From positions 1 to 29,806 of IMG/VR virus record IMGVR_UViG_3300042876_000881: a stretch of DNA of 29,806 nt; one strand, given 5' to 3'. How positions within the stretch are numbered: position 1 is the first letter of the stretch; each line of letters opens with the position of its first letter. This DNA comes from a virus. Both the position numbers and the translations under genes were made by a program. A model generated the notes under the pieces. It had not been told where the DNA came from. It was given only the letters and a program-made list of their open reading frames with translations, and did no database searches. Shown here piece by piece: positions 6,805 through 28,937 of the stretch.

Positions 6805-6993
6805 ATGGTAACTCAAGAGCAGATCACAGAAGCGATCGCCCGTTACAACCTAAAGCCAACGACACAATTCACAGCAGAGCAATTAGCGATTAAGCACCTC
6901 ACCTATCAGGGGAACCGCAAGTTTGAGAGATCGGCGTCCAGTTATAAGCCTGGGCGATCGCACTCACACTCAGACGGCAATTCACCCTGGTAG
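6805..6993 (+). CDS. Unknown small protein (62 aa)
   Basis: ATG 6805 has AAAAGGA nine bases upstream. The first 40 residues (TQEQITEAIARYNLKPTTQF, then TAEQLAIKHL) look like an ordinary helical protein; the tail (about 41-62) is serine-, histidine- and arginine-rich and overlaps a HIP1 octamer, so it may have been altered by a frameshift. I do not recognise the family. A perfect hairpin follows seven bases after the stop. It opens a run of small plus-strand genes leading to the Rad52-like gene. Confidence 0.5.
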   Translation: MVTQEQITEAIARYNLKPTTQFTAEQLAIKHLTYQGNRKFERSASSYKPGRSHSHSDGNSPW

Positions 6994-6999
6994 ATGCGT

Positions 7000-7018
7000 G
7001 TGGGGGCTAAGCCCCCAC
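7000..7018 (+). promoter_or_regulatory. Intergenic hairpin, 8-bp GC-rich stem
   Basis: GTGGGGGC and GCCCCCAC pair perfectly around the 3-base loop TAA. No T-tract follows, so it is not a classical terminator; it sits 13 bases before the next start codon. Confidence 0.6.
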
Positions 7019-7031
7019 TTGAGGCAAATAG

Positions 7032-7241
7032 ATGATTGAAGAGCTTTTATCGCAATGCTCTGTGTTTCGGTTTGTTCTTGATGGTGAGACAGCAGCGGTG
7101 ATTGATTGTCCATCAATGGCGATCGCTAAGAAGTTAGCGATTAACTACAAAACACTGCTTTCACATCTGCACGCATTCAGAACAATCCGCATCCTCTTGC
7201 TGGGCAGAGACTTGTATCCAATACTCAGTAACCCATCATGA
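7032..7241 (+). CDS. Unknown small protein (69 aa)
   Basis: The 69-residue protein starts at ATG 7032, with GAGG upstream and a strong hairpin just before that. It has an alternating hydrophobic pattern (VFRFVLDGETAAVIDCPSMA, then IAKKLAINYKTLL), so it is probably a small alpha/beta domain. Its stop overlaps the next start as ATGA. No family is recognised. The context is a run of small genes upstream of a recombination gene, typical of an early phage region. Confidence 0.6.
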   Translation: MIEELLSQCSVFRFVLDGETAAVIDCPSMAIAKKLAINYKTLLSHLHAFRTIRILLLGRDLYPILSNPS

Positions 7242-7459
7242 AACCTGCTTACATCAGTGACTATAGCGACACCAAGGTAAAACCCGTTCGGTGGATAGTG
7301 CAGCTACGATCCACCGTTGATCCTGGATTGTTTCGGTTGGTCGATCTAGTGACAACCAAACCAAGCTTTCAGGATGCGACTGATTTGATTTTCGATCGCC
7401 TTGGCTATGAATGGGCGATCGCAGGGTGCCGAAAGCCGGAAGACAACTGCGATTTTTAA
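7238..7459 (+). CDS. Unknown small protein (73 aa)
   Basis: ATG 7238 shares ATGA with the stop of the previous gene. The 73 residues contain aromatic and basic segments (KPVRWIVQLRSTVDPGLF; DLIFDRLGYEWAIAGCRK). No membrane segment, secretion signal or known motif is visible. A hairpin follows the stop codon. The gene is supported by coupling; the function is unknown. Confidence 0.6.
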   Translation: MKPAYISDYSDTKVKPVRWIVQLRSTVDPGLFRLVDLVTTKPSFQDATDLIFDRLGYEWAIAGCRKPEDNCDF

Positions 7460-9180: not shown

Positions 9181-10692
9181 ATGAAACAAGCCAAGCCCCC
9201 CAGCGCTGACAAGAGCCTCCCCTGTTTTCTGCATCCCCTCTACCTGCGGGTGTGGAACGACTTGCAACTAGTTCAGGATGTCTGGGATGAGCTTAAAGGT
9301 TGCAAGGCAAAATATTTGCCTCAAGAGGAAGCGGAGCCGCCCAAGGCTTATGAGAATCGGTTGGGGCGATCGCAGTTCGATTCCAGGTTTGCACCAGCGA
9401 TCAAGGCTCACGCAGGATTGCTCTCAGACTTCACTCTGTCCGACGATGTCGCCGAATCGATCAAGCTAAATCAGAGCAATATTGACCAGCAGGGAAACGA
9501 CCTAGAAACATTCCTAGCCGAACTGGATGAGATGGTTCTTAGGGATGGAGCCGCCGCGATCCATGTCGAATTTCCACCATTGCCAACCGACGTAGACGGC
9601 AATGAGATTCTGATCACCGCAGCCGATGAAGCGGCTTTAGAGTTGCGCCCCTATTTCGTGGCGATCGATCGCCGGAATATCCTCAACTGGGACGTTGAAT
9701 TTGTCAGAGGCAAGCCCCGGATCAATCAGGTCACGATCCAAGAGACGCACCTGATCAAGGATGGAGACTTTGGGGTGGAAAGCAAAACCTATTATCGAGT
9801 GTTGCGCCCTGGCAGTTTTGATGTTTTCGAGATTGTTGAATACGAGGGCAAGTGGCTTAGAAAATCGGTGCCCGAATTGTCTGGCACAACCAATCTGGAT
9901 GCAGTGCCCTTGGTTTGGTATTCGATCTCTGAGAGCAAAGTCTTCCAAGCGAACCCGCCGTTTCTGAATCTGGCACGGCTCAACATTGAACATCTCCAAA
10001 AACGCAGCTCCCTTAATGAGGTGCTTCACAAATGCAATTTGCCTGTCCCGGTCAGGAAAGGATTGATCCGCACAATCGCCGATCTGCTCAAACCGATCGC
10101 GAAACTTGTCATAGGTCCCAACTCAGTTGTCGATGTGCCCGTCGATGGAGATTTCTATTTTGCTGAACCTACCGGGAATGCGATCGCCGCCACACAAGCG
10201 GACATCGAAAAACTCGAAGGCTCCATGGATCGGGTCAGCTTGAGTTTTCTCAATGGCGGTGAAGCACAGAAAACGGCGACGGAAGTAGTCTTAGACTCTG
10301 CCCAAACCCAAGCCACTCTCAAAGGCATGGCACGCCGCAAAGAAAACGCCATAGAGCAAGCCTTCGGATTTTGGGCAGACTACACCGGGGAAGAGTCGAG
10401 CGGCTCGATCGAGGTAAATGAATCATTGCTACAGATTGCGCCATCGGCTCAGGACATTCAGCTCATCCTGGATGCGATGGGGGTCAAGATCCCTAATCGG
10501 TTGGCTTTAGAGATGCTGCTTCAACGCCGCTGGCTACCGCCCGAAACAGATCTAGACGAGATTATTGCCATGCTTGAGGGAGTGCCCGAACCTGCTCAGG
10601 CGATCGCCCCTATCACCCCACCCCCCGAACCAAATCAACCGCTGGCAACCGAGGCTGATATCCAGGCTGAGGAGATGGCGATCGCAGCTTAA
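9181..10692 (+). CDS. Phage portal protein, DUF4055 type (503 aa)
   Basis: The 503-residue protein fits DUF4055 portals in length and layout: an N-terminal helix with YLPQEE and YENRLGRSQF (about 40-70), then GLLSDFTLSD (about 80-90), a segment LDEMVLRDGAAAIHVEFPP (about 118-136), the RPYFVAIDRRNILNW core and a C-terminal proline-rich tail. Portals form the dodecameric ring through which DNA enters and leaves the head. ATG 9181 is preceded by CTGGGG, a weak site. The tail PPPEPNQP is encoded by a minus-strand copy of the dispersed G-rich motif. It is read opposite to the terminase genes 15 kb away, so the morphogenesis genes are split into blocks. Confidence 0.8.
   Translation: MKQAKPPSADKSLPCFLHPLYLRVWNDLQLVQDVWDELKGCKAKYLPQEEAEPPKAYENRLGRSQFDSRFAPAIKAHAGLLSDFTLSDDVAESIKLNQSNIDQQGNDLETFLAELDEMVLRDGAAAIHVEFPPLPTDVDGNEILITAADEAALELRPYFVAIDRRNILNWDVEFVRGKPRINQVTIQETHLIKDGDFGVESKTYYRVLRPGSFDVFEIVEYEGKWLRKSVPELSGTTNLDAVPLVWYSISESKVFQANPPFLNLARLNIEHLQKRSSLNEVLHKCNLPVPVRKGLIRTIADLLKPIAKLVIGPNSVVDVPVDGDFYFAEPTGNAIAATQADIEKLEGSMDRVSLSFLNGGEAQKTATEVVLDSAQTQATLKGMARRKENAIEQAFGFWADYTGEESSGSIEVNESLLQIAPSAQDIQLILDAMGVKIPNRLALEMLLQRRWLPPETDLDEIIAMLEGVPEPAQAIAPITPPPEPNQPLATEADIQAEEMAIAA
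10619..10631 (-). repeat. Dispersed G-rich motif, exact copy (minus strand)
   Basis: Exact minus-strand copy of GGTTCGGGGGGTG in the portal C-terminal coding region, antisense to the gene, where the plus strand encodes PPPEP. Confidence 0.8.
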
Positions 10693-12993: not shown

Positions 12994-13512
12994 TCAACGG
13001 GCGATCGCCACTGCCACCAAACCCAAGCCGATCGCCCACCAGAGCCGGAGTGCTATGAACGCGATCGCCATGCTCAACCTTAATCTCCAGAGAAAACTAT
13101 CACGGTTGCGATTGAGCCAATTAGAGCGACGGCTGACCAGATACTCACTGAAGTTATGGGCACAGTTTTTAGAGTTGGAGTGACACCTCAAGCAGAGGGG
13201 GAATATCTGTAAGAACGGCATTTCAAAGCCTGGGATAGGTAGCTTAAGGCGGATCAAGCAACTGGCGACAACTACCACACCTGCCAATACTGCACAACTC
13301 ACCAAGGGCAACCTGTGAGCGATCGCCATCATCACCAGCGCCCCTAGAACGGAAGCTAATAGCCAGGGCACTAAGTCAAGCCCATAGTAAGCATGATGAA
13401 CTTGGGCGGCTTTTCTCAGGCATAGACAACAGCGGTCATTGGTGAGCGCCCTTGTGAAGTTAGCAGTGTGCCGCCATTTAGTTGGGTGATATCTAGGGTC
13501 TCTACTTTCCAT
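12994..13512 (-). CDS. HNH-like protein with membrane helices inside the finger (172 aa)
   Basis: ATG 13512 has GAGG seven bases upstream and overlaps the ATPase gene by 11 bases. The sequence holds the parts of an HNH nuclease finger: CCLC (C28 and C31 as a CxxC), HH (39-40), GFE (95-97) and LCLRCH (C107, C110, H111). In HNH proteins the HH and GxE parts are normally about 10 residues apart; here about 55 residues containing two membrane helices (about 48-65 and 69-88) are inserted. A third membrane segment lies at about 143-165. It could be a membrane nuclease that cuts DNA as the neighbouring ATPase moves it, or a zinc structural protein. The pattern is clear, the activity is inference. 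Confidence 0.65.
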   Translation of the reverse strand: MESRDPRYHPTKWRHTANFTRALTNDRCCLCLRKAAQVHHAYYGLDLVPWLLASVLGALVMMAIAHRLPLVSCAVLAGVVVVASCLIRLKLPIPGFEMPFLQIFPLCLRCHSNSKNCAHNFSEYLVSRRSNWLNRNRDSFLWRLRLSMAIAFIALRLWWAIGLGLVAVAIAR

Positions 13513-15148
13513 TGGGTTGCCTCGAAAATCTCCAAATTGATTTGCCGTTGGGCTGTTGTTCAATCTGTCCCCAACCTGCCTGGGCAAGGTAGCTCAGGAA
13601 TTGGTTGAAGCCGTCTGCTCCGTTGGTGCCGTTGTCCTGCCACCAATTCTTCCTGATCCTCGCCACATGAAACGCGCCATCCTCCAGAAACTTACCGCCG
13701 CGCTCTGGGTCGGAAATATACGTCATGAAGCTGTTGATCAGTTCGGGGGGATATTGGGGACTTAGGCAACTTTTTAGATAGGCGATCGCATCTTCTCTCG
13801 GAGGAAGTTTGACCTCGTCAAAATCTGCATAGTCAGGCTGCACCGTTTCCGGCTCGACGACTGCCACGGGTGCGGATAGCTCCGCGCATTCAGCCTGATC
13901 AGAGATTGAGGTCAGCGCTCCGTATCTTGCCTTGCTCAGGTCTGGCAGCTTATAAAGATCGGTTCCTCCTAGCGTCGTGAAGGCAAGTGGGATTGATAGG
14001 TTTTGAGTTTTGTCGTTGCGATAGAACGCTAACAGCTTTTCTAAGCGTCTTCGTTCGGATGTACTACTAACTACATAGATATTAGATACTGCATCTTCAA
14101 CGCTCTGATAGTCTCCATTCCGCGCCAGTGCGACGTAGGACATATTGTCTTGAACGCTGGTATCCAGGCACAGCAGCTTAACGCGAGTTGTTTGAGCCAT
14201 CAACCAAATGTAGACCCGATCCTCTGCCCCCTGGAAGATGAACCGCTCGATTAACGAACAGAGCTTTGCCGCTGTGCGTGGGTTGCCTTCTGGGTTTTCC
14301 TTGGTCGGACGGCTGGGGAATTGGTCGTCGTAAGATCGCGCCAGTGACAGGAGTGTGTTGAACTCATCAACGCAGATAAATATCGGCATTGGTGGATTCT
14401 CTCCCCAGTGCCCACCGATTGCAACCCGCTGGTGTTGGCGGCGCTCTAGAACTCCCTCAAGGATCGAGAGTCGTTCAATTAGTTGAGGTATCCGGTTTTT
14501 GTTATTGCAAAACAGATAGTGATCCGAGTCCTTTTCCAGCCCACACCAGGCGGCTCCTTTCGGGTCGAAGATATGGAAATCAGCCAACCCCTTATGGCAC
14601 TCAGAGGCAGCGGCGATCGCCCCCTGAATCAGCGTTGTCTTACCAGACCGAGTTCGACTGGCAACAAGAAAATGACCTTCGTATGTGCCCATCTCTGATG
14701 GGATGTAGCGCTCAACAATCTGAGCGGCAACCCGTTGGATTTCCTCTTGGGATGCGTTGCCAACGTCAGAAGAAATAGATGGGGCGCTATCGCTACTTCC
14801 TCCAGCCGATTCAAGCAGTGCTTCATACTGCCGTTCTTCAAGCAGGTCTTCAAATGTCAATGATGCGCTTAGTTTTTGGCGATCGCGCATCTTCACTAGC
14901 TTCTTCATCCGTTCGTTCTCTGCCCATTCGCCATTAGGTTGAGCTGCAACTGCCACCGACACAGAACACACAAGACTTGCCAACAAACCCGCATACCGCA
15001 GCGATCGCGGCATTGACCGGGGAGATAGAGAGGTTATCCATAAAAAAGCTGCCAAAACCAACAACCCGATAGGTGAGACTTTTGGCAGCAGTTGAGCGAG
15101 GCTGAGGAGGATTTGACCGCTCAGCCGAGAGAGCCTAACAGAGTCCAT
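13502..15148 (-). CDS. Membrane-anchored FtsK/VirD4-like ATPase (548 aa)
   Basis: I start at ATG 15148, with GGAG eight bases upstream; a longer frame to 15193 overlaps the preceding gene more. Two membrane segments (about 24-41 and 52-69) precede a cytosolic part. It has a P-loop ASRTRSGKT (163-171), in which the usual first glycine is replaced, FHIFDPKG (191-198), and a Walker B PIFICVDEF (255-263). The DPKG motif is typical of FtsK/TraD/VirD4 DNA pumps. The C-terminal 150 residues look like a winged-helix region ending GWGQIEQQ and SIWRF. It probably moves DNA at the membrane, for segregation, transfer or entry. The family is not the FtsK of cell division; no gamma-domain repeat is evident. 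Confidence 0.75.
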   Translation of the reverse strand: MDSVRLSRLSGQILLSLAQLLPKVSPIGLLVLAAFLWITSLSPRSMPRSLRYAGLLASLVCSVSVAVAAQPNGEWAENERMKKLVKMRDRQKLSASLTFEDLLEERQYEALLESAGGSSDSAPSISSDVGNASQEEIQRVAAQIVERYIPSEMGTYEGHFLVASRTRSGKTTLIQGAIAAASECHKGLADFHIFDPKGAAWCGLEKDSDHYLFCNNKNRIPQLIERLSILEGVLERRQHQRVAIGGHWGENPPMPIFICVDEFNTLLSLARSYDDQFPSRPTKENPEGNPRTAAKLCSLIERFIFQGAEDRVYIWLMAQTTRVKLLCLDTSVQDNMSYVALARNGDYQSVEDAVSNIYVVSSTSERRRLEKLLAFYRNDKTQNLSIPLAFTTLGGTDLYKLPDLSKARYGALTSISDQAECAELSAPVAVVEPETVQPDYADFDEVKLPPREDAIAYLKSCLSPQYPPELINSFMTYISDPERGGKFLEDGAFHVARIRKNWWQDNGTNGADGFNQFLSYLAQAGWGQIEQQPNGKSIWRFSRQPNGK

Positions 15149-15399
15149 ATCACTGCTCCAATTCCAGTTATCACGCAGGCGATCGCCATCCAAAACCCGC
15201 CATAGTATTCAATCAATTCCAGGTCTAACCAGTTGGCGATCGCATCATCCAGATTCCATCCGATATAGGCGATCGCGAGAATTATTAGAGATGCGATCGC
15301 CCAGGTTTGCCAGGGCTGAGAGAGTATCCACAAGCTCAGCAGAGAGGAAGTAATGCAGCCCGTTAAAAAACAGGCTGCGAGAAAATAAAGCCGTCTCAT
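15121..15399 (-). CDS. Small integral membrane protein (92 aa)
   Basis: ATG 15399 shares ATGA with the stop of the upstream gene. The 92 residues contain three hydrophobic segments (about 5-25, 33-49 and 69-90), so it is mostly embedded in the membrane. Between the second and third is a short acidic stretch (NLDDAIANWLDLELIEYY). No family recognised. It is coupled to the ATPase gene, which starts inside its end, and may form a membrane platform or channel for it. The membrane prediction is by eye from hydrophobic runs. Confidence 0.65.
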   Translation of the reverse strand: MRRLYFLAACFLTGCITSSLLSLWILSQPWQTWAIASLIILAIAYIGWNLDDAIANWLDLELIEYYGGFWMAIACVITGIGAVIWTLLGSLG

Positions 15400-15923
15400 C
15401 GGTTCAACTGATCCTCATAACGTCGGCGCATCTCAGCGAACCGATCCTGCACAGCCTTAACCTTCTTGTCTGCCATGTCTGCACCCAGCGAAAGCTTTTG
15501 CCGCAATGCCTCGTACTGGGGAACTTGCCGCAGCAGCCCACCTGCTAGGTTGGCATCTGCTTGCTTGCGCTCCAGCTCTCCAGCAGCTCGAATCGCCTGA
15601 AACTTGCGGTGTTGAACGTGAAGCTCTGTCTCTTTTTCTTCGAGTGTGATGAGCTTGCCAAGTGCGCGAATACTGCGGCTGATTGCCTTCATGAGATCAG
15701 GTTGCCGAGTTTCGATATCCTCACAGGTCACATCGTCGAGGGTTCCGGAGCTAGGGATGCTCCCAAAGCTTCTGCTAGTCCCCCAGGTTAAAGAAGAGAA
15801 CGGAGTGATAGCACTGGGCGCGGTTGGCTCCAGCACCTGATCGGTTGTGAAGCTTTGCTTCCGTCCCTGAACAGCCTTGGATAAATTGCCGCCGCCTGAA
15901 TTCTTTGCTAATTTTCCAGCCAT
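15396..15923 (-). CDS. Coiled-coil protein of the membrane-ATPase operon (175 aa)
   Basis: ATG 15923 has AGGAGA about ten bases upstream. The 175-residue protein has a low-complexity, serine/proline-rich N-terminal half (about 1-70) and a long charged helix in the second half (about 80-175, from KAISRSIRALGKLITLEEKE to the end). This is the profile of an extended coiled coil. No membrane segment. Its family is not recognised. In the operon it sits between an acidic protein and a membrane protein and could be a scaffold linking the ATPase with other parts. Confidence 0.6.
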   Translation of the reverse strand: MAGKLAKNSGGGNLSKAVQGRKQSFTTDQVLEPTAPSAITPFSSLTWGTSRSFGSIPSSGTLDDVTCEDIETRQPDLMKAISRSIRALGKLITLEEKETELHVQHRKFQAIRAAGELERKQADANLAGGLLRQVPQYEALRQKLSLGADMADKKVKAVQDRFAEMRRRYEDQLNR

Positions 15924-18483: not shown

Positions 18484-19098
18484 ATGATAATCACGATCGC
18501 CAGCCTTAAGGGTGGGGTTGGCAAAACGACAACAGCATTTCACTTCGCGGCGATCGCCAACGAGATCGCCCCCACGGTCTTAGTAGATGGAGATCCAAAT
18601 AGAAGCGCGATCGCCTGGTCACAGCAAAACGATCAGGCGACTTTTACTGTGATCTCAGAGAAGCAGTTGCCTAAGTACGGCGGCAAATTTGAGAACATCG
18701 TCATCGATACCCAAGCGCGTCCAACGCCGGACGATTTCAGAGACCTGGTAGAAGCGTCTGATCTGATCGTTCTGCCGACCCCGCCGACTTTTCTAGACCT
18801 GTCTTCGACGCTGGAAACGGTGCAGGTCTTAAGCGATGTTGGCTCAACAATCCATAGAGTTTTGTTGACCAAGGTTCCGACCAACACCCGCTCGACCGAC
18901 GAAGCGGACGCACGGGCTTTTCTGTGTGATCATTCGATCGCTGTCTTTGCTGGCAGAATTCGGTTTTACAAGGCGTTTGAGAGAGCGGCTCTGGGTGGCG
19001 TCGAGGTTGGCAAGGTGAAGGGCGATCGCAATTCGAAGCTAGCCTGGAACGACTATCAGGCAGTGGTGAGAGAAGCTATTGAGGTGATCAATGGGTAA
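18484..19098 (+). CDS. parA: ParA-type partition ATPase (204 aa)
   Basis: ATG 18484 has GGAG eight bases upstream. The protein has the deviant Walker A motif KGGVGKTT (residues 9-16), followed by VDGDPNRSA (34-42) and a Walker B NIVIDTQA (about 71-78). It is only 204 residues and has no N-terminal DNA-binding domain, which matches the small type Ib-like ParA group used by plasmids and some phages. It would bind DNA non-specifically in the ATP form and move plasmid copies apart with a centromere-binding partner. A ParB is encoded 0.9 kb downstream and an unknown protein upstream; the true partner could be either. Confidence 0.88.
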   Translation: MIITIASLKGGVGKTTTAFHFAAIANEIAPTVLVDGDPNRSAIAWSQQNDQATFTVISEKQLPKYGGKFENIVIDTQARPTPDDFRDLVEASDLIVLPTPPTFLDLSSTLETVQVLSDVGSTIHRVLLTKVPTNTRSTDEADARAFLCDHSIAVFAGRIRFYKAFERAALGGVEVGKVKGDRNSKLAWNDYQAVVREAIEVING

Positions 19099-19792: not shown

Positions 19793-19994
19793 GCCATGCA
19801 CGTGCGATCGCACTCCACATAAACACGGTCAAGACCGTGACGGATACCAGCGCTGGAAATGCCCAAAGTGTAATCTAACATGGTCGGACAATCCAGATCC
19901 TAAACCATTCAGAAAACCCTGCTTGAGCGATCGCGCCATGACCCCAGCCGAAAGGAAACGCGCCCAACGTGCAAGGCGTAAAGCCGATGGGTAA
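19785..19994 (+). CDS. Small zinc-finger protein resembling transposase N-termini (69 aa)
   Basis: ATG 19785 overlaps the upstream stop by eight bases. It has CTCDRTPHKHGQDRD (C5 and C7 with His 12 and 14) and then QRWKCPKCNLTW (a CxxC), the general pattern of the InsA-like zinc fingers found at the start of IS1-type and some plasmid proteins. A basic C-terminus (TPAERKRAQRARRK) would bind nucleic acid. It is encoded within the par region and its end overlaps parB by eight bases. No transposase body follows, so it is probably a small DNA-binding protein and not an IS remnant. Confidence 0.6.
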   Translation: MNKPCTCDRTPHKHGQDRDGYQRWKCPKCNLTWSDNPDPKPFRKPCLSDRAMTPAERKRAQRARRKADG

Positions 19995-20856
19995 ATTTTC
20001 CCGAATCAAAACCCTTCAGAATTCTGGCGACTCCGATCCGGTTGAGTCCGGTGCAGAAATGGCGATCGCCCTCATCCATCCATCAACCAACCAACCCAGA
20101 AAACATTTTGACCAGAGCAGGCTAGATGCTCTGGTTTTGTCTGTCCGAGAGCAGGGGATTTTAGAGCCGCTGTTAGTTCGTCCGATTGCTGACGGGTTCG
20201 AGATCGTTGCAGGTGAGCGGAGATATAGAGCCGCTCAGATCGTCGGACTCAAAACTGTGCCAGTCGTGGTTAAGGATGTGGGCGATCGCGAAGCATTTGA
20301 AATAGCTCTGATCGAAAACCTCCAACGGGAAGACCTAAATCCGATTGAAGAAACCGAGGGAGTTTTAGGGCTGCTATCGTTAAGACTGGGGATAGAGTTG
20401 GGGCAGGTTCAAGCGCTACTGCACACCCTGGTAAAAGACTCTAGTAACGTTACTAGACGAGCTGAGACGGAAGAGGTTTTAGAGCAGCTAGGAATCAACC
20501 TGGTGAGTTTCGCAACCAACCGACTACCGATCCTCAGACTGCCAGACGATGTTCAGGACGCAATCAGGAAGGGATTGGAATACACCAAGGCACGGGCGAT
20601 CGCCAGAGTCAAAAATGACGAGCAACGCCAGATCCTGATCGAGAAGGCGCTGACTGAAAACTTGTCATTAACCCAGATCAAAGAACTGATCAAGGGGTTT
20701 AGTTCGGGGGGTGCCGTTGCTAGGGATGCGATTGGCGATCGCGTTCAGTCTGTGCTGAAAAAAATTAATAAGGCAAAATTAGAGCAGATGCCGGGAGCGA
20801 AGCGACGGCAGCTAGAAGGCTACCTAGAAAAGATTGAGCAGATGTTAGGAGATTAG
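19987..20856 (+). CDS. parB: ParB-type partition protein (289 aa)
   Basis: I start at ATG 19987, which shares eight bases with the previous stop. The N-terminal ParB domain has the CTP-binding box GERRYRAA (76-83) and the second box ENLQREDLNPIEE (110-122). A helix-turn-helix region follows (about 125-205), then a long charged C-terminus likely to mediate dimerisation. Such proteins load on centromeres and slide along DNA when bound to CTP. With the ParA 0.9 kb upstream this forms a partition module, probably with a parS site nearby. An 18-bp perfect palindrome inside this gene is one candidate site. The C-terminal GFSSGGA is coded by a near copy of the dispersed motif. Confidence 0.85.
   Translation: MGKFSRIKTLQNSGDSDPVESGAEMAIALIHPSTNQPRKHFDQSRLDALVLSVREQGILEPLLVRPIADGFEIVAGERRYRAAQIVGLKTVPVVVKDVGDREAFEIALIENLQREDLNPIEETEGVLGLLSLRLGIELGQVQALLHTLVKDSSNVTRRAETEEVLEQLGINLVSFATNRLPILRLPDDVQDAIRKGLEYTKARAIARVKNDEQRQILIEKALTENLSLTQIKELIKGFSSGGAVARDAIGDRVQSVLKKINKAKLEQMPGAKRRQLEGYLEKIEQMLGD
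20440..20457. repeat. 18-bp perfect palindrome inside parB
   Basis: TCTAGTAACGTTACTAGA is self-complementary over 18 bp, centred on AACGTT. Its location inside the parB coding region makes it a candidate centromere (parS-like) site; it does not match the classical TGTTTCACGTGAAACA. Confidence 0.7.
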
Positions 20857-20858
20857 AA

Positions 20859-21353
20859 ATGGAAAAGCGAGTGAACATTGAGGACTGGTCTTTAGCTCTT
20901 CAGGGATTGCTGGAAGACTCTCAAATCGAACTGACGAAAATCTTAAGCACTGAGGACTTAGATCGGGAGGAACTAAGAAGCTATGACAGTTCGCTGTCCT
21001 TGCTAATGGAAGAAATCGCAGCCGTACTAAAAAGCGATCGCAAGATTCGGATCAAGGCAGCGCCGGACAGGGGATGGACTGAGTATGAGGTCAAGACATC
21101 CATAGGTATCACCAACTATGACATGTGGAGATTTGACGCAGGGGGCGTGACGCTTAGATCAATTCAGTCGATTGAGGTTGTCCCTAGTGAAAGCGATCGC
21201 GTGATTGCGGATGGGTGGAAAGCCGTCGATAAAGTCGTCAAGGATCGGTGTCAAGCGCTCAAGGCTTCGCTCGGCATCGAAGATGTCGAAGAGATCGGGG
21301 TCGTTGACGACTACTGGCAGATCATCGCACGAATGCTAAACCCCCAACTTTGA
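20859..21353 (+). CDS. Unknown protein downstream of parB (164 aa)
   Basis: ATG 20859 follows the parB stop by two bases and has AGGAG eight bases upstream. The 164 residues begin with a helical region (VNIEDWSLALQGLLEDSQIE), pass through a glutamate-rich stretch and a beta-type middle (WTEYEVKTSIGITNYDMWRF), and end with helices. It has no membrane segment and I do not recognise the family. The tight spacing after parB suggests a role in maintenance or segregation. Its 3' end overlaps the EAL gene on the other strand by 18 bases (convergent). Confidence 0.65.
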   Translation: MEKRVNIEDWSLALQGLLEDSQIELTKILSTEDLDREELRSYDSSLSLLMEEIAAVLKSDRKIRIKAAPDRGWTEYEVKTSIGITNYDMWRFDAGGVTLRSIQSIEVVPSESDRVIADGWKAVDKVVKDRCQALKASLGIEDVEEIGVVDDYWQIIARMLNPQL

Positions 21354-22097
21354 ACATTCCCCAGGCATCCCGATCGCCCAACCTTGCACAAACACTTGAG
21401 GGCGATCGCTCTCCTCAGCCAAGCCCTTAGCCCAATCCCAGGTACCTTGATCCTCGACTCCTTCGAGAGTGCAGGTTGCCTCTAGCTCTGAGCAGAGAGC
21501 AGCGATCGCCCTGACAATTGCCCGTGCTCTGGAGTTGTAGATCAACTGAATCGTGAGAACGTAATCGACCTTGACCGCTGCAAAGATTGGCTGAGAGAGG
21601 CAAACGAAAGGCGAATGTCTTGACCCCTTGCCGCCTAAGTCATCCAGTACAACCGTGTGCGACTCCGCCAAGTGGGTTAGAGTTTTCCCCGCACTACTGT
21701 CAAGATCTAGATAATCCCGCTCAGTGATTTCCAGGTGCAGCAGTCGAGAGCGAGCGTTAAGCGTCGCCATTTGCTTACCCAAGTCCTGGGCAAAATACGA
21801 GGTGCCCAAAATTGCCAGACCCAGATTAACGGCGTGGGGGGTCTCTGTTCTGGCGATCGCCTCTATGCCATGCCTCAACATCCACCAGTCCAAATCAATC
21901 ATCAGAGCGTCATTGTCTGCGATCGCATCAATAAACCAACTCGCAGGAATGACCCCCATAGTCGGATGATTCAATCGGACGAGCATCTCATGTTGAGCGA
22001 TCGCCCCTTCGACTGTGGCGATCGGCTGGCAATGGACAGCGAGGCTGAACCCGTCTCGCTCGGCTAGCGCTTTTCGGATCATCAATTCCCAACCCAT
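21336..22097 (-). CDS. Stand-alone EAL-domain c-di-GMP phosphodiesterase (253 aa)
   Basis: The 253 residues are a single EAL domain with no sensor or GGDEF part. The signature series is present in order: EML (37-39, as EAL), N91, the LEITE motif (E123), DDLGG (152-156, in place of DDFG), K176, EGVE (212-215) and Q238 in VQGW. These are the metal- and c-di-GMP-binding positions in active EAL enzymes, so it may hydrolyse c-di-GMP to pGpG. It is the last gene of a three-gene operon with a membrane protein and an unknown protein. EAL proteins are unusual cargo on a phage. Alternative: a c-di-GMP receptor without catalysis. Confidence 0.82.
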   Translation of the reverse strand: MGWELMIRKALAERDGFSLAVHCQPIATVEGAIAQHEMLVRLNHPTMGVIPASWFIDAIADNDALMIDLDWWMLRHGIEAIARTETPHAVNLGLAILGTSYFAQDLGKQMATLNARSRLLHLEITERDYLDLDSSAGKTLTHLAESHTVVLDDLGGKGSRHSPFVCLSQPIFAAVKVDYVLTIQLIYNSRARAIVRAIAALCSELEATCTLEGVEDQGTWDWAKGLAEESDRPQVFVQGWAIGMPGECSKLGV

Positions 22098-24972: not shown

Positions 24973-25255
24973 GATTCATTACCAACATCCCAAAATGCCC
25001 AAGGGGCACAATGCCTGTGGGTTAGGCGATCGCAATAAAATCTTAATCTCAACAAACCTGGATGAAGTGACGTGCGATCGCTGTCTCAGAACTGCGACCG
25101 CTGGCAAAAACGGCGGCAGACCGGAAAGCGGCATGAGGCAGATTATGGTCAATGTCATGCTGCCAGTCGAAGTGATTGACTGGCTCAGCACCAAGAACAA
25201 GTCGGAAACGATCCGCACCCTCCTAATAGAGGAGATGGCAAGGGCGACTCAGTAG
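24965..25255 (+). CDS. Small protein with CxxC and RHH-like part (96 aa), sixth of the array
   Basis: ATG 24965 shares eight bases with the upstream stop, which selects it over the longer frame. The first half has a possible metal site (HNACGLGDRN; VTCDRCLRTA, a CxxC), and residues about 57-95 (MRQIMVNVMLPVEVIDWLST, then KNKSETIRTLLIEEMA) follow the ribbon-helix-helix pattern: strand, helix, turn KSE, helix. It could be a repressor or accessory DNA-binding protein of this array. Its 3' end overlaps the sigma gene on the other strand by seven bases. Confidence 0.7.
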   Translation: MPKIHYQHPKMPKGHNACGLGDRNKILISTNLDEVTCDRCLRTATAGKNGGRPESGMRQIMVNVMLPVEVIDWLSTKNKSETIRTLLIEEMARATQ

Positions 25256-25959
25256 ACGGCGCTCAACAGCTCGATAACTTCCACCAAGCGATCGCCCCCC
25301 ATCCCTCTCCGCTCAAAGAACACCCCCCGAACCAGATCCCGATCTGACGAGGGCAAGCGATCGCACCTCTCCTTAAGCAGCCTCAACTCTGATGCGATCG
25401 CCCTGATTGGTTCGGGGGGTAGCCAGTAGATTGAATCCAACTGCTCGTGAATCTCCTCATTTAACTCCACTGCTTTTTGATTGGCGATCGCACCTCTGGC
25501 AGTCCGCAACTCAACAACCGAAACAGACAACAGCTCAGCCAATTGAATATCACTCGGATAGACGCCGCAGGAATCGAACCACTGTTTTTCTGCGGCTTTC
25601 GCTTTGGCGCTCAACTCTCGCCAGCGGCGCGGCACCTTGACGATGGAGCCATGATCTCTGAGGTGGTGAAGAATGTGCCCCTTGATGAACGGCACGGCAA
25701 ACGATGACAGACTAGCGCCCATCGTCGGATCAAAGCGCTCGATTGCTCGGTTAAGCCCCAGGTATCCAATCTGCTCCAAGTCTTCATAGGGCACTGCACA
25801 TCTGGCAACAAACGAATGAGCCTGTTTTCTGACAAGTAGGAAATTTGATTGGGCGATCGCATTTCTCAGCCTGATCTGTTCGGCGGGTGCATCGTCGAAG
25901 ATTCTGAGTTTAAAGTATTGCCAAATTAGGCGCGATCGCCCTGTCTTTAGTGGCTCCAT
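25249..25959 (-). CDS. Sigma-70-family factor with shortened region 4 (236 aa)
   Basis: I start at ATG 25959, eight bases after GGGGGTGAG; a GTG 21 bases earlier is an alternative. Residues about 30-115 are a clear sigma region 2 (LRNAIAQSNFLLVRKQAHSF, then YEDLEQIGYLGLNRAIERFD, then SFAVPFIKGHILHHLRDHGS), and 116-180 looks like region 3. The remaining 55 residues correspond to region 4 but lack the second helix of the helix-turn-helix that contacts the -35 element. It resembles group 3 (alternative) sigma factors and may direct polymerase to phage late promoters with an unusual or extended -10. It overlaps the terminase gene by 13 bases and follows it. Two copies of the dispersed motif lie inside the gene. 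Confidence 0.82.
   Translation of the reverse strand: MEPLKTGRSRLIWQYFKLRIFDDAPAEQIRLRNAIAQSNFLLVRKQAHSFVARCAVPYEDLEQIGYLGLNRAIERFDPTMGASLSSFAVPFIKGHILHHLRDHGSIVKVPRRWRELSAKAKAAEKQWFDSCGVYPSDIQLAELLSVSVVELRTARGAIANQKAVELNEEIHEQLDSIYWLPPEPIRAIASELRLLKERCDRLPSSDRDLVRGVFFERRGMGGDRLVEVIELLSAVY
25321..25333 (-). repeat. Dispersed G-rich motif, exact copy (minus strand)
   Basis: Exact minus-strand copy of GGTTCGGGGGGTG in the sigma gene, sense orientation (encodes LVRGV). A second near copy on the plus strand ends in TA at 25409-25421. Confidence 0.8.
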
Positions 25960-27521
25960 CCGGCAGAACTCACCCCCCACGCTCCGGGTCTACGAGATTC
26001 GATCAACTCTACCGCAGTGTCGAGCCATGCCCAACCCGCAGCCCATGACATGATGCAGTCGTCTGTCTCGTTCATGCCCTCACGCCTGGTCGCAGAAAAT
26101 CTTTGCATCTCTCGAATGCCGTGCCAATCGTCAGGATAAATTACTTCATCCTGCTCCAACGCCAGCGCGATCCGGTCGGTGTTCACTTTCTTGCTCGATG
26201 CCGTTGTCTTAACTAGCTCGATGCGCCAATCAGGGCGATCGCTCATCAAGTTCTCAGCTATTGTCGTACCGCCGCTATTGGATTCGATCGCAACCAAGAC
26301 AGGTGCGTATCTATCTCCCAATTCCCTCACTCGCCCCCGACTGTAGGCAGTAGAGCGATCGCTTTCCCGGTACTGGGCAACGAGTGAGTAGGGGATAGAG
26401 GTGATGTCCCAGACCTGAGCAACGAACGGGTCAGACCCTCCGAAGTTCGGATCAATGCAGAGCAGATAGAAGTGATTTGCTCTCGGTTCTTGCCAGCTCC
26501 CAACTTTGTTACGGGCGATCGCTTCCAAGTTAAACAACGAGCCACCGTCTTTGGGTAGCCCCAAGTTATGCTCCCGCTCTGCCTCTGCCTGGGTGATCTT
26601 CTTTTTGATCCGTTTCTCTTCGACGTAGTTGGGATTGCTCCCATATATCGGATGTGCCTTGTGTCCGATGATGACTTTGACCCAGCCGCCATCATCCTCC
26701 CAGGCACAGAAGCCGGGGATAGGTGCGATGTCTACTCTGGTGCGGTTGAAAAATTCGCCTGATCGGGCAACTTGCAGCATCTGCTCAATATCGATATCGG
26801 ACGGGTTGCCGTCTTCGCCTCGCTCCCAGTACCAACAGTTCCTCCCCTCTGGTGGGATTGTCGAGACGATGAATGTCCTGGCATCCTCTCCGACCATCTC
26901 TTGAGAGGGTGTTGACGCGGCGTACATCTCATCAATGATCGGAATGAATCCGCTCTCGTCAAAGAACAAATCCCAGACAGACTCAAGACCGCGAGTAGCG
27001 TTAGAGGTCGAAGGTCTAAAGTTCAGTTCGCCACCCCCGATCGCTTTCCTCACCCCAATGTTGTCAATCTCCCACGCGAAATCTGGGATCTGCGACGGCA
27101 TCCGCTCGATCCGCTTGCTGACCTTATGGGCGTCTTTTTCGGTGATTGAAAACACTGCCCCGGCATAGGCAGGGTTGCCCGTTGAGCGGTAGAGCATCCA
27201 GCAGATTAGCAACTCGGTTAGTCCTAGCTGCCTGTCCTTGCAGACCCACATCCCCGGATACTCGAAGGCAAGACGAGCGATCGCCAACTGATAGGCGAAC
27301 AGCGGATCGAACCGGATCAACCTGGTTCCGGATCTGACAACGCACTGCGAGGCAAACTCGACAAATCCCTCGATCGTGAACGTAGGGGCGATCGCAACAG
27401 TGCTAAGATTTTCGGCTCTAATTTCGAGCAGCCGCTTCTCTGCGATCCTCGACAGTTGCGATCGCGTGGAGGACGGTAATGAAAAGCTCTTCCGGTAGGA
27501 TGCTTTCAAGCTGTCTAACAA
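25947..27521 (-). CDS. terL: Terminase large subunit (524 aa, start uncertain)
   Basis: The packaging motor. The ATPase half has the adenine-binding Q-like segment FDPLFAYQ (71-78), a classic phage-type Walker A variant CKDRQLGLT (94-102), Walker B WDLFFDES (183-190) and the coupling motif IVSTIPPEG (218-226). The nuclease half has the acidic residues D357 (CIDPNFGGSD), E413 (VAIESNS) and D487/D488 (NETDDC). Numbering is from TTG 27521. This start has no good ribosome site and overlaps the small terminase by 104 bases, but no ATG or GTG lies between it and the first conserved residues. It would cut and pump DNA into the head through the portal. Confidence 0.9.
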   Translation of the reverse strand: MLDSLKASYRKSFSLPSSTRSQLSRIAEKRLLEIRAENLSTVAIAPTFTIEGFVEFASQCVVRSGTRLIRFDPLFAYQLAIARLAFEYPGMWVCKDRQLGLTELLICWMLYRSTGNPAYAGAVFSITEKDAHKVSKRIERMPSQIPDFAWEIDNIGVRKAIGGGELNFRPSTSNATRGLESVWDLFFDESGFIPIIDEMYAASTPSQEMVGEDARTFIVSTIPPEGRNCWYWERGEDGNPSDIDIEQMLQVARSGEFFNRTRVDIAPIPGFCAWEDDGGWVKVIIGHKAHPIYGSNPNYVEEKRIKKKITQAEAEREHNLGLPKDGGSLFNLEAIARNKVGSWQEPRANHFYLLCIDPNFGGSDPFVAQVWDITSIPYSLVAQYRESDRSTAYSRGRVRELGDRYAPVLVAIESNSGGTTIAENLMSDRPDWRIELVKTTASSKKVNTDRIALALEQDEVIYPDDWHGIREMQRFSATRREGMNETDDCIMSWAAGWAWLDTAVELIESRRPGAWGVSSAGWSH

Positions 27522-27964: not shown

Positions 27965-28060
27965 GTGTGCCAATAAATACCAAGTATAGCTGTGTGCCGC
28001 TTTTGTGTGCCGCTTATTTCGCTGAAACCCTTGTGGGGAGAGGCTTTGAGCGAATATAAT
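27965..28060. promoter_or_regulatory. Divergent promoter region between terS and second ParB gene
   Basis: On the plus strand TATAAT (28055-28060) with TTGTGG (28031-28036), 18 bp apart, precedes the ParB-like gene; it overlaps the possible ATG 28059, which is therefore rejected as the start. On the minus strand TATACT (27988-27983) is a -10 for terS. TGTGTGCCGCTT is repeated at 27991-28002 and 28004-28015 (13-bp period) and GTGTGCC again at 27965-27971. Confidence 0.6.
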
Positions 28061-28085
28061 GGTAACAACCACACAGGAGAGCGCA

Positions 28086-28937
28086 ATGACCGCAACCCTA
28101 ATTCAAGACATTCCTCTTAATAGAATCTTCCCAAATCCAGATCAGCCACGCAAGGCTTTTGACTCAGAGCATATCAGCAACCTGGCTGAGTCAATCAAAA
28201 CCAACGGTTTACTTCAGCCGATCGTGGTTGTCCCCCGGTTCGGCAAGTACATGATCGTATCTGGCGAATGCAGATATAGAGCGCACTGCAAGATCGGCGC
28301 GGCGTCCATCCAGGCAATCATCAGAGCAGATATCAACTCAGCAGGAAAGCAGGCTATTCAGATCAGCGCAATCATTGAGAACGTGATCCGAAAAGATATG
28401 ACCCCGATGGAAGAGGCTAGAGCATACAGCAGCCTGCTTGCGTCGATACCCATTGAGGAGCTAGCTCGATCCATCGGCGTCGCCAAGTTTCGGATCGCTT
28501 GGAGGGTCAAGCTTCTCGACATGATTCCAGCCGCTCAAAACGCATTCGATAATGGTGAGCTGAGCATGACTCAGGCGAGGACATTGGGCGAGATGCCGGA
28601 AGGCTTGCAAGAGAAACTGTTTGCCATGATCCAGGCTGGCAGATGCAATACGGACGCAAAGCTTAAGGCAGCTAAAGCCGTCCTCATGTCTCCAGTGATG
28701 TCCCAGTCATCGCTGGACATTCAGACGGTTGATGACAGCAAGGCGATCGCAATGAAGCGGAAGTTAGAAGCGATCGCCGCAGAGTTGGCAGATCTGACCG
28801 TGAACTACAAAGATGATCCATCGACAATGTCCGGGCATCTGATGAGCCAAAACCAGGCAACGCTGGACAACATGATCAGAACGGCTCAGATGCTGCAAAA
28901 AGAGCTTTACTCGCAGCAGTTCAAAGCCTGCGTATAG
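28086..28937 (+). CDS. Second ParB-like DNA-binding protein (283 aa)
   Basis: ATG 28086 has AGGAG six bases upstream; the in-frame ATG at 28059 lies in the -10 element. It has the ParB-domain layout: LNRIFPNPDQPRKAFDSEHI, a box GECRYRAH (GERR becomes GECR), and ENVIRKDMTPMEEA, then a helix-turn-helix (LARSIGVAKFRIAWRVK) and an alanine-rich C-terminus. The arginine of the CTP-binding box is replaced by cysteine. Many phages encode such proteins as replication, transcription or nuclease-like factors and not for partition. It is distinct from the other ParB of this window and has no ParA next to it. Confidence 0.82.
   Translation: MTATLIQDIPLNRIFPNPDQPRKAFDSEHISNLAESIKTNGLLQPIVVVPRFGKYMIVSGECRYRAHCKIGAASIQAIIRADINSAGKQAIQISAIIENVIRKDMTPMEEARAYSSLLASIPIEELARSIGVAKFRIAWRVKLLDMIPAAQNAFDNGELSMTQARTLGEMPEGLQEKLFAMIQAGRCNTDAKLKAAKAVLMSPVMSQSSLDIQTVDDSKAIAMKRKLEAIAAELADLTVNYKDDPSTMSGHLMSQNQATLDNMIRTAQMLQKELYSQQFKACV

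Follow-up and report, generated by a model that had tools for sequence, protein, structure and literature searches.

A putative membrane hairpin inside a predicted HNH nuclease fold, encoded beside an FtsK/HerA-type ATPase in a cyanobacterial virus

Results

Layout of the HNH finger gene

The window, by which we mean the whole stretch of DNA analysed here, is 29,806 bases long and forms an IMG/VR virus record from a cyanobacterial virus. Read on its minus strand from 13512 to 12994, one open reading frame (ORF) encodes a 172-amino-acid HNH finger protein with a putative membrane hairpin insert (N-terminus MESRDPRYHP...). Its ATG matches the start of a relative, L039, and the ORF overlaps by 11 bases the ATPase gene upstream, which stops at 13502. 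The protein reads MESRDPRYHPTKWRHTANFTRALTNDRCCLCLRKAAQVHHAYYGLD-[LVPWLLASVLGALVMMAIAHRLPLVSCAVLAGVVVVASCLIRLK]-LPIPGFEMPFLQIFPLCLRCHSNSKNCAHNF..., the bracketed LVPWLLASVLGALVMMAIAHRLPLVSCAVLAGVVVVASCLIRLK being the insert, and has the layout of a zinc-type HNH domain, CxxC-HH-CxxCH-H. Alignment and conservation place the first half of the structural zinc site at CxxC (residues 28–31; 13420–13431, minus strand, as are all features of this gene), and the second half, together with the metal-ligand His, at CLRCH (residues 107–111; 13180–13194). On the basis of the AF2 model and conservation, HH (residues 39–40; 13393–13398) is predicted to belong to the first strand of a beta-beta-alpha-metal core, with His40 at the place of the general base.

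The motif parts CxxC, HH, GFE and CLRCH stand in the ORF translation in the places and order claimed by a preliminary description, and its estimate of about 55 residues with two membrane segments between HH and GFE agrees with the 54 residues counted. GFE itself (residues 95–97; 13222–13230) is present as described but is no metal ligand; by alignment it is the GxE of the ordinary HNH loop (compare yong5, ...GREVLGLHIFPVC). The insert (about residues 47–90; 13243–13374) holds two hydrophobic segments of TM length, TM1 (residues 47–65; 13318–13374) and TM2 (residues 69–87; 13252–13308), with a short turn between them and 19-residue Kyte-Doolittle hydropathy peaks of 2.28 and 2.52. A third hydrophobic segment (residues 152–170; 13003–13059; hydropathy 2.11), overlooked earlier, lies at the C-terminus. 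Basic residues fall mostly in the finger halves, with few in the hairpin turn, and by the positive-inside rule the sequence therefore suggests that both halves are cytoplasmic.

Conservation of ligands and catalytic residues

Across 24 diverged fingers, C28, H39, C107, H111 and H119 (13156–13158) are kept in 24/24, H40 in 23/24 and C31 in 21/24, and position 110 is Cys in 21/24 and His in the other three. The Cys and His residues, whose loss from homologues had been set beforehand as the refuting test, are thus retained. Within the hairpin subfamily, L014, L063 and L064 carry a Cys-to-His ligand swap in the second zinc pair, CxxC becoming CxxH (CDLHH). The HNH feature of an HH (or DH) strand followed by a metal-ligand His or Asn on a helix is present in the window (H39, H40 and H111). 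The middle Asn of H-N-H is absent, its position being occupied by Q102 in the window, N in phage relatives, S in Nostoc plasmids, H in yong5 and D in others; this position varies within the HNH nuclease superfamily. HR replaces HH in an ATPase–finger fusion from Moorena (below), so the nuclease of the fusion may be inactive.

Predicted fold

Among solved structures, a profile of 12 fingers matched Cas5-HNH (E 3.5e-5) and IscB (E 1e-3), in both cases at the HNH domain, and several PHROG HNH endonuclease families matched members of the finger family; Pfam gave no significant match for the window finger. The AF2 model of the window protein, of moderate confidence and with shallow alignments (pLDDT 66, pTM 0.45), has an HH strand at 37–40, helices at 44–65 and 70–88, corresponding to TM1 and TM2, and a strand at 103–106. 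Almost all Foldseek matches of this model were HNH nucleases, with weak E-values. With all Z values below 8, a level that supports an HNH fold and is no proof of it, VIA-align matched the window model to Cas5-HNH (Z 6.7 over 67 residues at 3.3 Å, model residues 4–122 on chain residues 274–354), to GVE2 HNH (5h0m, Z 6.7) and to T4 endonuclease VII (Z 4.3), and all 29 rows for the L014 model were HNH nucleases, including Cap5 (Z up to 6.2 over 82–87 residues). A viral structure library yielded mainly ordinary HNH proteins, whose overlap was partial or poor. Alignments spanning both halves would be impossible were the halves apart, so the models (mean pLDDT 66 and 60) bring them together, as had been proposed, with the hairpin skipped; halves kept far apart had been named as the other refuting outcome. 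An HNH nuclease fold with the hairpin looped out and the two halves meeting is what these models predict.

Recurrence and rarity of the hairpin

When the inserted helices were sought in homologues, a hairpin was found at exactly the window's insert site in a second viral contig, IMGVR_UViG_3300037420_002493 (L014; HHAYYGLPIVYPITILSSIVALITPLSLFGLSLIPILWGYSLPLPGFEIPLWQVFPLCDLHH), whose finger is 46% identical to the window protein, and in a cyanobacterial genome, G190, with two intact prophage-like copies (L063, L064) and two truncated ones (L059, L060). Their hydrophobic stretch is shorter, about 33 residues with a central Pro versus about 44 in the window, so the L014-type hairpin may be shorter or re-entrant; the L014 model has helices at 61–77 and 83–88. 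Insert dN/dS among L014, L063 and L064 is 0.15–0.27, indicating purifying selection. G190 also encodes a hairpin-less member of the same subfamily, L039 (LPIAGFEIPGWQLFPLCDRCHSN), with 53% identity to the window protein in the aligned columns outside the insert. A tree built without the insert columns joined the hairpin forms, the window with the L014 clade, apart from L039 (support 88), which is consistent with a single gain of the hairpin at a support that is not decisive. The same ordered motif set in 24 diverged fingers and the same-site hairpin in independent loci show that chance is not the cause, and the observation in the window is real. Its first reading is supported as largely right.

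Hairpin fingers were also sought in evenly drawn, overlapping samples of the phylum (386 genomes), one order (388), the order of G190 (42) and the class of G190 (388), and none was found outside G190. The hairpin form is therefore rare: across all samples searched it is confined to the window, the L014 contig and the G190 genome. Direct searches of viral contigs with the window finger or the window ATPase gave no match. A literature search, conducted mostly without subscription papers, found no description of a TM hairpin inside an HNH fold. The HNH family itself is known; for the membrane hairpin in its core and for the pump-linked module, the libraries searched appear to contain no earlier description.

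Relatives without the hairpin

Searched against plasmids with tblastn, the window finger gave weak matches in Nostoc plasmids (E about 0.1), in which 85–88% of the query was spanned by only ~95–100 codons; against a phage collection, tblastn with the window protein gave no match. The Nostoc finger ORFs, mostly unannotated or mis-annotated, lie directly after a 513-aa ATPase gene, and the Nostoc sequence CVVCLTKKSEEIHHAYYGNDIIGQSTFPTCYRCHNEICHS represents the same finger with a short loop. Used as a query, the Nostoc finger retrieved cyanophage relatives annotated as HNH endonuclease (A-1(L), WNO23434), NinG (yong5, WYD66263) or hypothetical protein. In the insert-less family, R, Y, CxxC, HH, Y, CxxCH and a His further on are invariant. 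One alignment, A2, was too diverse for pattern scans. From HHxxY to the second Cys pair, Nostoc plasmid and cyanophage relatives have roughly 15–30 residues and no TM segments. The C-terminal hydrophobic segment recurs in L039, L041, L101 and L105, and the fingers of pNLP3 and G305, which lack the TM hairpin, show a basic-hydrophobic loop in its position (RRILGMFLFH and RRLFGCFLLH); contact with the membrane thus seems to recur in the family.

In three plasmid relatives (L002, 7845–8291; L008, 4848–5237; L068, 9476–9964), the finger ORF enters the ATPase gene by ~130 bases in a different frame. The basic tail is conserved and there is no ATG further on, and either a long overlap or a programmed frameshift may be involved. 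At the last of these loci, in G305, one ATPase gene is flanked by two different fingers (6877–7407 and 9476–9964).

The neighbouring ATPase and gene order

The adjoining upstream gene (13502–15193, minus strand) encodes a 563-aa FtsK/HerA-type ATPase with N-terminal hydrophobic segments, in line with the DNA-pump-like neighbour first described. The assignment is distant; the Walker A and B motifs of the FtsK/HerA class are present, judged by the family profile, which matches EccC (FtsK/SpoIIIE-type; E 5e-11), HerA (2e-5) and TcpA (1e-4); the single window ATPase falls below the cut-off for Pfam FtsK_SpoIIIE (E 0.023). In Leptolyngbya phage yong5, the homologue carries the annotation DNA translocase coupling protein. 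Two further minus-strand genes encode a 92-aa small membrane protein (15121–15399), which occupies the same operon place as in Nostoc plasmids and yong5, and a 175-aa coiled-coil-like protein (15396–15923), which occupies that of 146–151-aa proteins elsewhere; no sequence similarity was detected in either case. The window, Nostoc/Halotia plasmids and yong5 share one gene order: coiled-coil, small TM, ATPase, finger. Pairwise BLAST of the window ATPase and the two small genes against their Nostoc counterparts gave nothing significant, and the window is linked to Nostoc through the yong5 homologue and profiles for the ATPases and through gene order alone for the small genes. Searching viral contigs with an ATPase alignment (A3) found nothing.

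The linkage between ATPase and finger is near-obligate. In ten genomes, picked for having fingers, a choice that does not bias linkage, 22/26 fingers lay on the same strand and no more than 5 kb from an ATPase-profile match, where uniform placement expects 0.2, and 17 of those 22 lay within 600 bases. No such ATPase was found near the fingers of the Anabaena phage group (A-1(L)) or the chromosomal finger in G071. On Moorena plasmid NZ_CP017600, ATPase and finger are fused in a single 676-aa protein (WP_149031492.1; L102, 3442–5472). A thermonuclease-family gene follows this fusion. In yong5, a phage isolate, the module lies directly upstream of the portal and capsid genes.

Other genes of the element

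The window also encodes a portal (9181–10692), on the opposite strand to the finger, TerL (25947–27521), and one ParA-like and two ParB-like proteins (18484–19098, 19969–20856 and 28059–28937, plus strand); this combination of partition-like genes with terminase and portal makes the element look like a phage-plasmid. EAL-domain proteins (PF00563) are encoded on both viral contigs with hairpin fingers (window 21336–22097, minus strand, E 5e-28; L066 10806–11543, E 6e-45), and may be virus-encoded c-di-GMP phosphodiesterases or scaffolds. A sigma-70 region 2 protein is encoded at 25249–25980 (minus strand), with homologues near fingers in L066, L067 and L068.

Discussion

We somewhat favour the reading that the window protein is an HNH nuclease anchored in the membrane, which acts together with a mobile-element DNA translocase, the FtsK/HerA-type ATPase, in DNA transfer or processing. 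A zinc-stabilised HNH domain would be anchored at the inner face of the cytoplasmic membrane by a hairpin that would replace the loop, short in ordinary members, between the HH strand and the next strand. With the hairpin in this loop, the chain would enter and leave the membrane between the halves, so that both are predicted to lie on the cytoplasmic side, and the C-terminal hydrophobic helix may form a second anchor. At the membrane, the ATPase encoded just upstream would pump double-stranded DNA, which the HNH domain would cut at the pore, whereby a phage-plasmid-like element might gain a DNA transfer or processing machine, as with TdtA and a NurA-like nuclease in Thermus, a nuclease-plus-pump pair with a DNA-transfer role on ICETh1 (PMC5365140). 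Cleavage, cooperation at the pore and purpose are parts of this reading that we infer. We hold more tentatively, and with some doubt, the further proposal that cyanobacteria have a mobile-element DNA machine of a new kind, in which an FtsK/HerA-class membrane pump has its own hairpin-anchored HNH nuclease and the hairpin, being built into the catalytic fold, would confine cutting to DNA at the pore.

Several findings weigh against the favoured reading. Gln stands for the HNH Asn in the window; HR in place of HH in the Moorena fusion means that one or more members may have lost activity; the fingers of Anabaena phages and one chromosomal finger lack the ATPase nearby; model confidence is moderate, with Z values below 8; the L014-type hairpin of ~33 residues is short for two full passes; and conjugative plasmid carriers already own other transfer systems. 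The carriers, which are phages, prophages and plasmids, fit either transfer or exclusion. Superinfection exclusion or defence, in which the membrane ATPase and membrane-held HNH nuclease would cut entering foreign DNA and so shield the resident prophage or plasmid, is an alternative that we consider unlikely. It would account for a cutter held in the membrane at the entry face and for the mobile carriers, HerA/FtsK capture defence systems with linked nucleases have been described (PMC10853773), and 10/13 ATPases give a weak PADLOC mad8 match over the Walker A region. However, the mad8 match is confined to the P-loop region (residues 28–94 of 314), no self/non-self component was seen, and the module also occurs in a phage isolate, yong5, immediately before its structural genes.

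Replacement of the HNH Asn by Q in the window, S in Nostoc plasmids and H in yong5, with HR in the Moorena fusion, would also suit a structural zinc finger without nuclease activity, acting as an adaptor for holding DNA or the ATPase at the membrane. We regard such an adaptor as improbable, since the HH histidines and the CxxCH His are kept in 23/24 fingers, including residues that zinc does not need. A phage packaging helper, that is, a small HNH protein aiding terminase like HK97 gp74, GVE2 HNH or HrdP, is very unlikely. The window model does resemble GVE2 HNH, and in yong5 a few genes separate the finger from the portal downstream of it. Most relatives, however, are plasmid-borne, with no terminase in the stretches covered, and a membrane anchor makes no sense for filling a capsid. 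We rejected this candidate on gene position, the finger at 12994–13512 being neither between nor beside TerL and portal. Scarcely credible, finally, is an artefact in which the frame or insert is no real protein feature or the gene has decayed, as the truncated G190 copies might hint; homologues refute it, since independent relatives are intact and share the insert site, dN/dS is low and the ligands are conserved.

Membrane segments inside a small nuclease core, together with a same-subfamily relative that lacks them, would offer a clean test case for the passage from soluble enzyme to membrane protein. If the ATPase link is functional, cyanophages, prophages and Nostoc plasmids would have in common a largely unannotated pump-plus-nuclease module that serves DNA transfer or exclusion.

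Among known systems, the zinc-site HNH nucleases Cas5-HNH, IscB HNH, GVE2 HNH, McrA, T4 endonuclease VII and Cap5 have the same CxxC-HH-CxxCH layout, and the predicted fold aligns with them over both halves; unlike the window protein, the matched structures have no membrane hairpin in the core loop. Cyanophage and Nostoc plasmid fingers belong to the same sequence family, and the ATPase neighbourhood is the same in the plasmids and yong5. With the membrane translocases TcpA, FtsK and EccC, the window ATPase shares profile matches and N-terminal hydrophobic segments; we know of no HNH partner or fusion in those systems. HerA/FtsK capture defence likewise combines a pump-class ATPase with a nuclease in mobile neighbourhoods, whereas its nucleases differ (REase, exonuclease) and have no membrane hairpin (PMC10853773). 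TdtA with its NurA-like nuclease, for which no membrane-inserted nuclease has been described (PMC5365140), has an unrelated nuclease fold, whereas the window nuclease matches HNH, and it likewise pairs an FtsK/HerA-class membrane ATPase with a nuclease on a mobile element.
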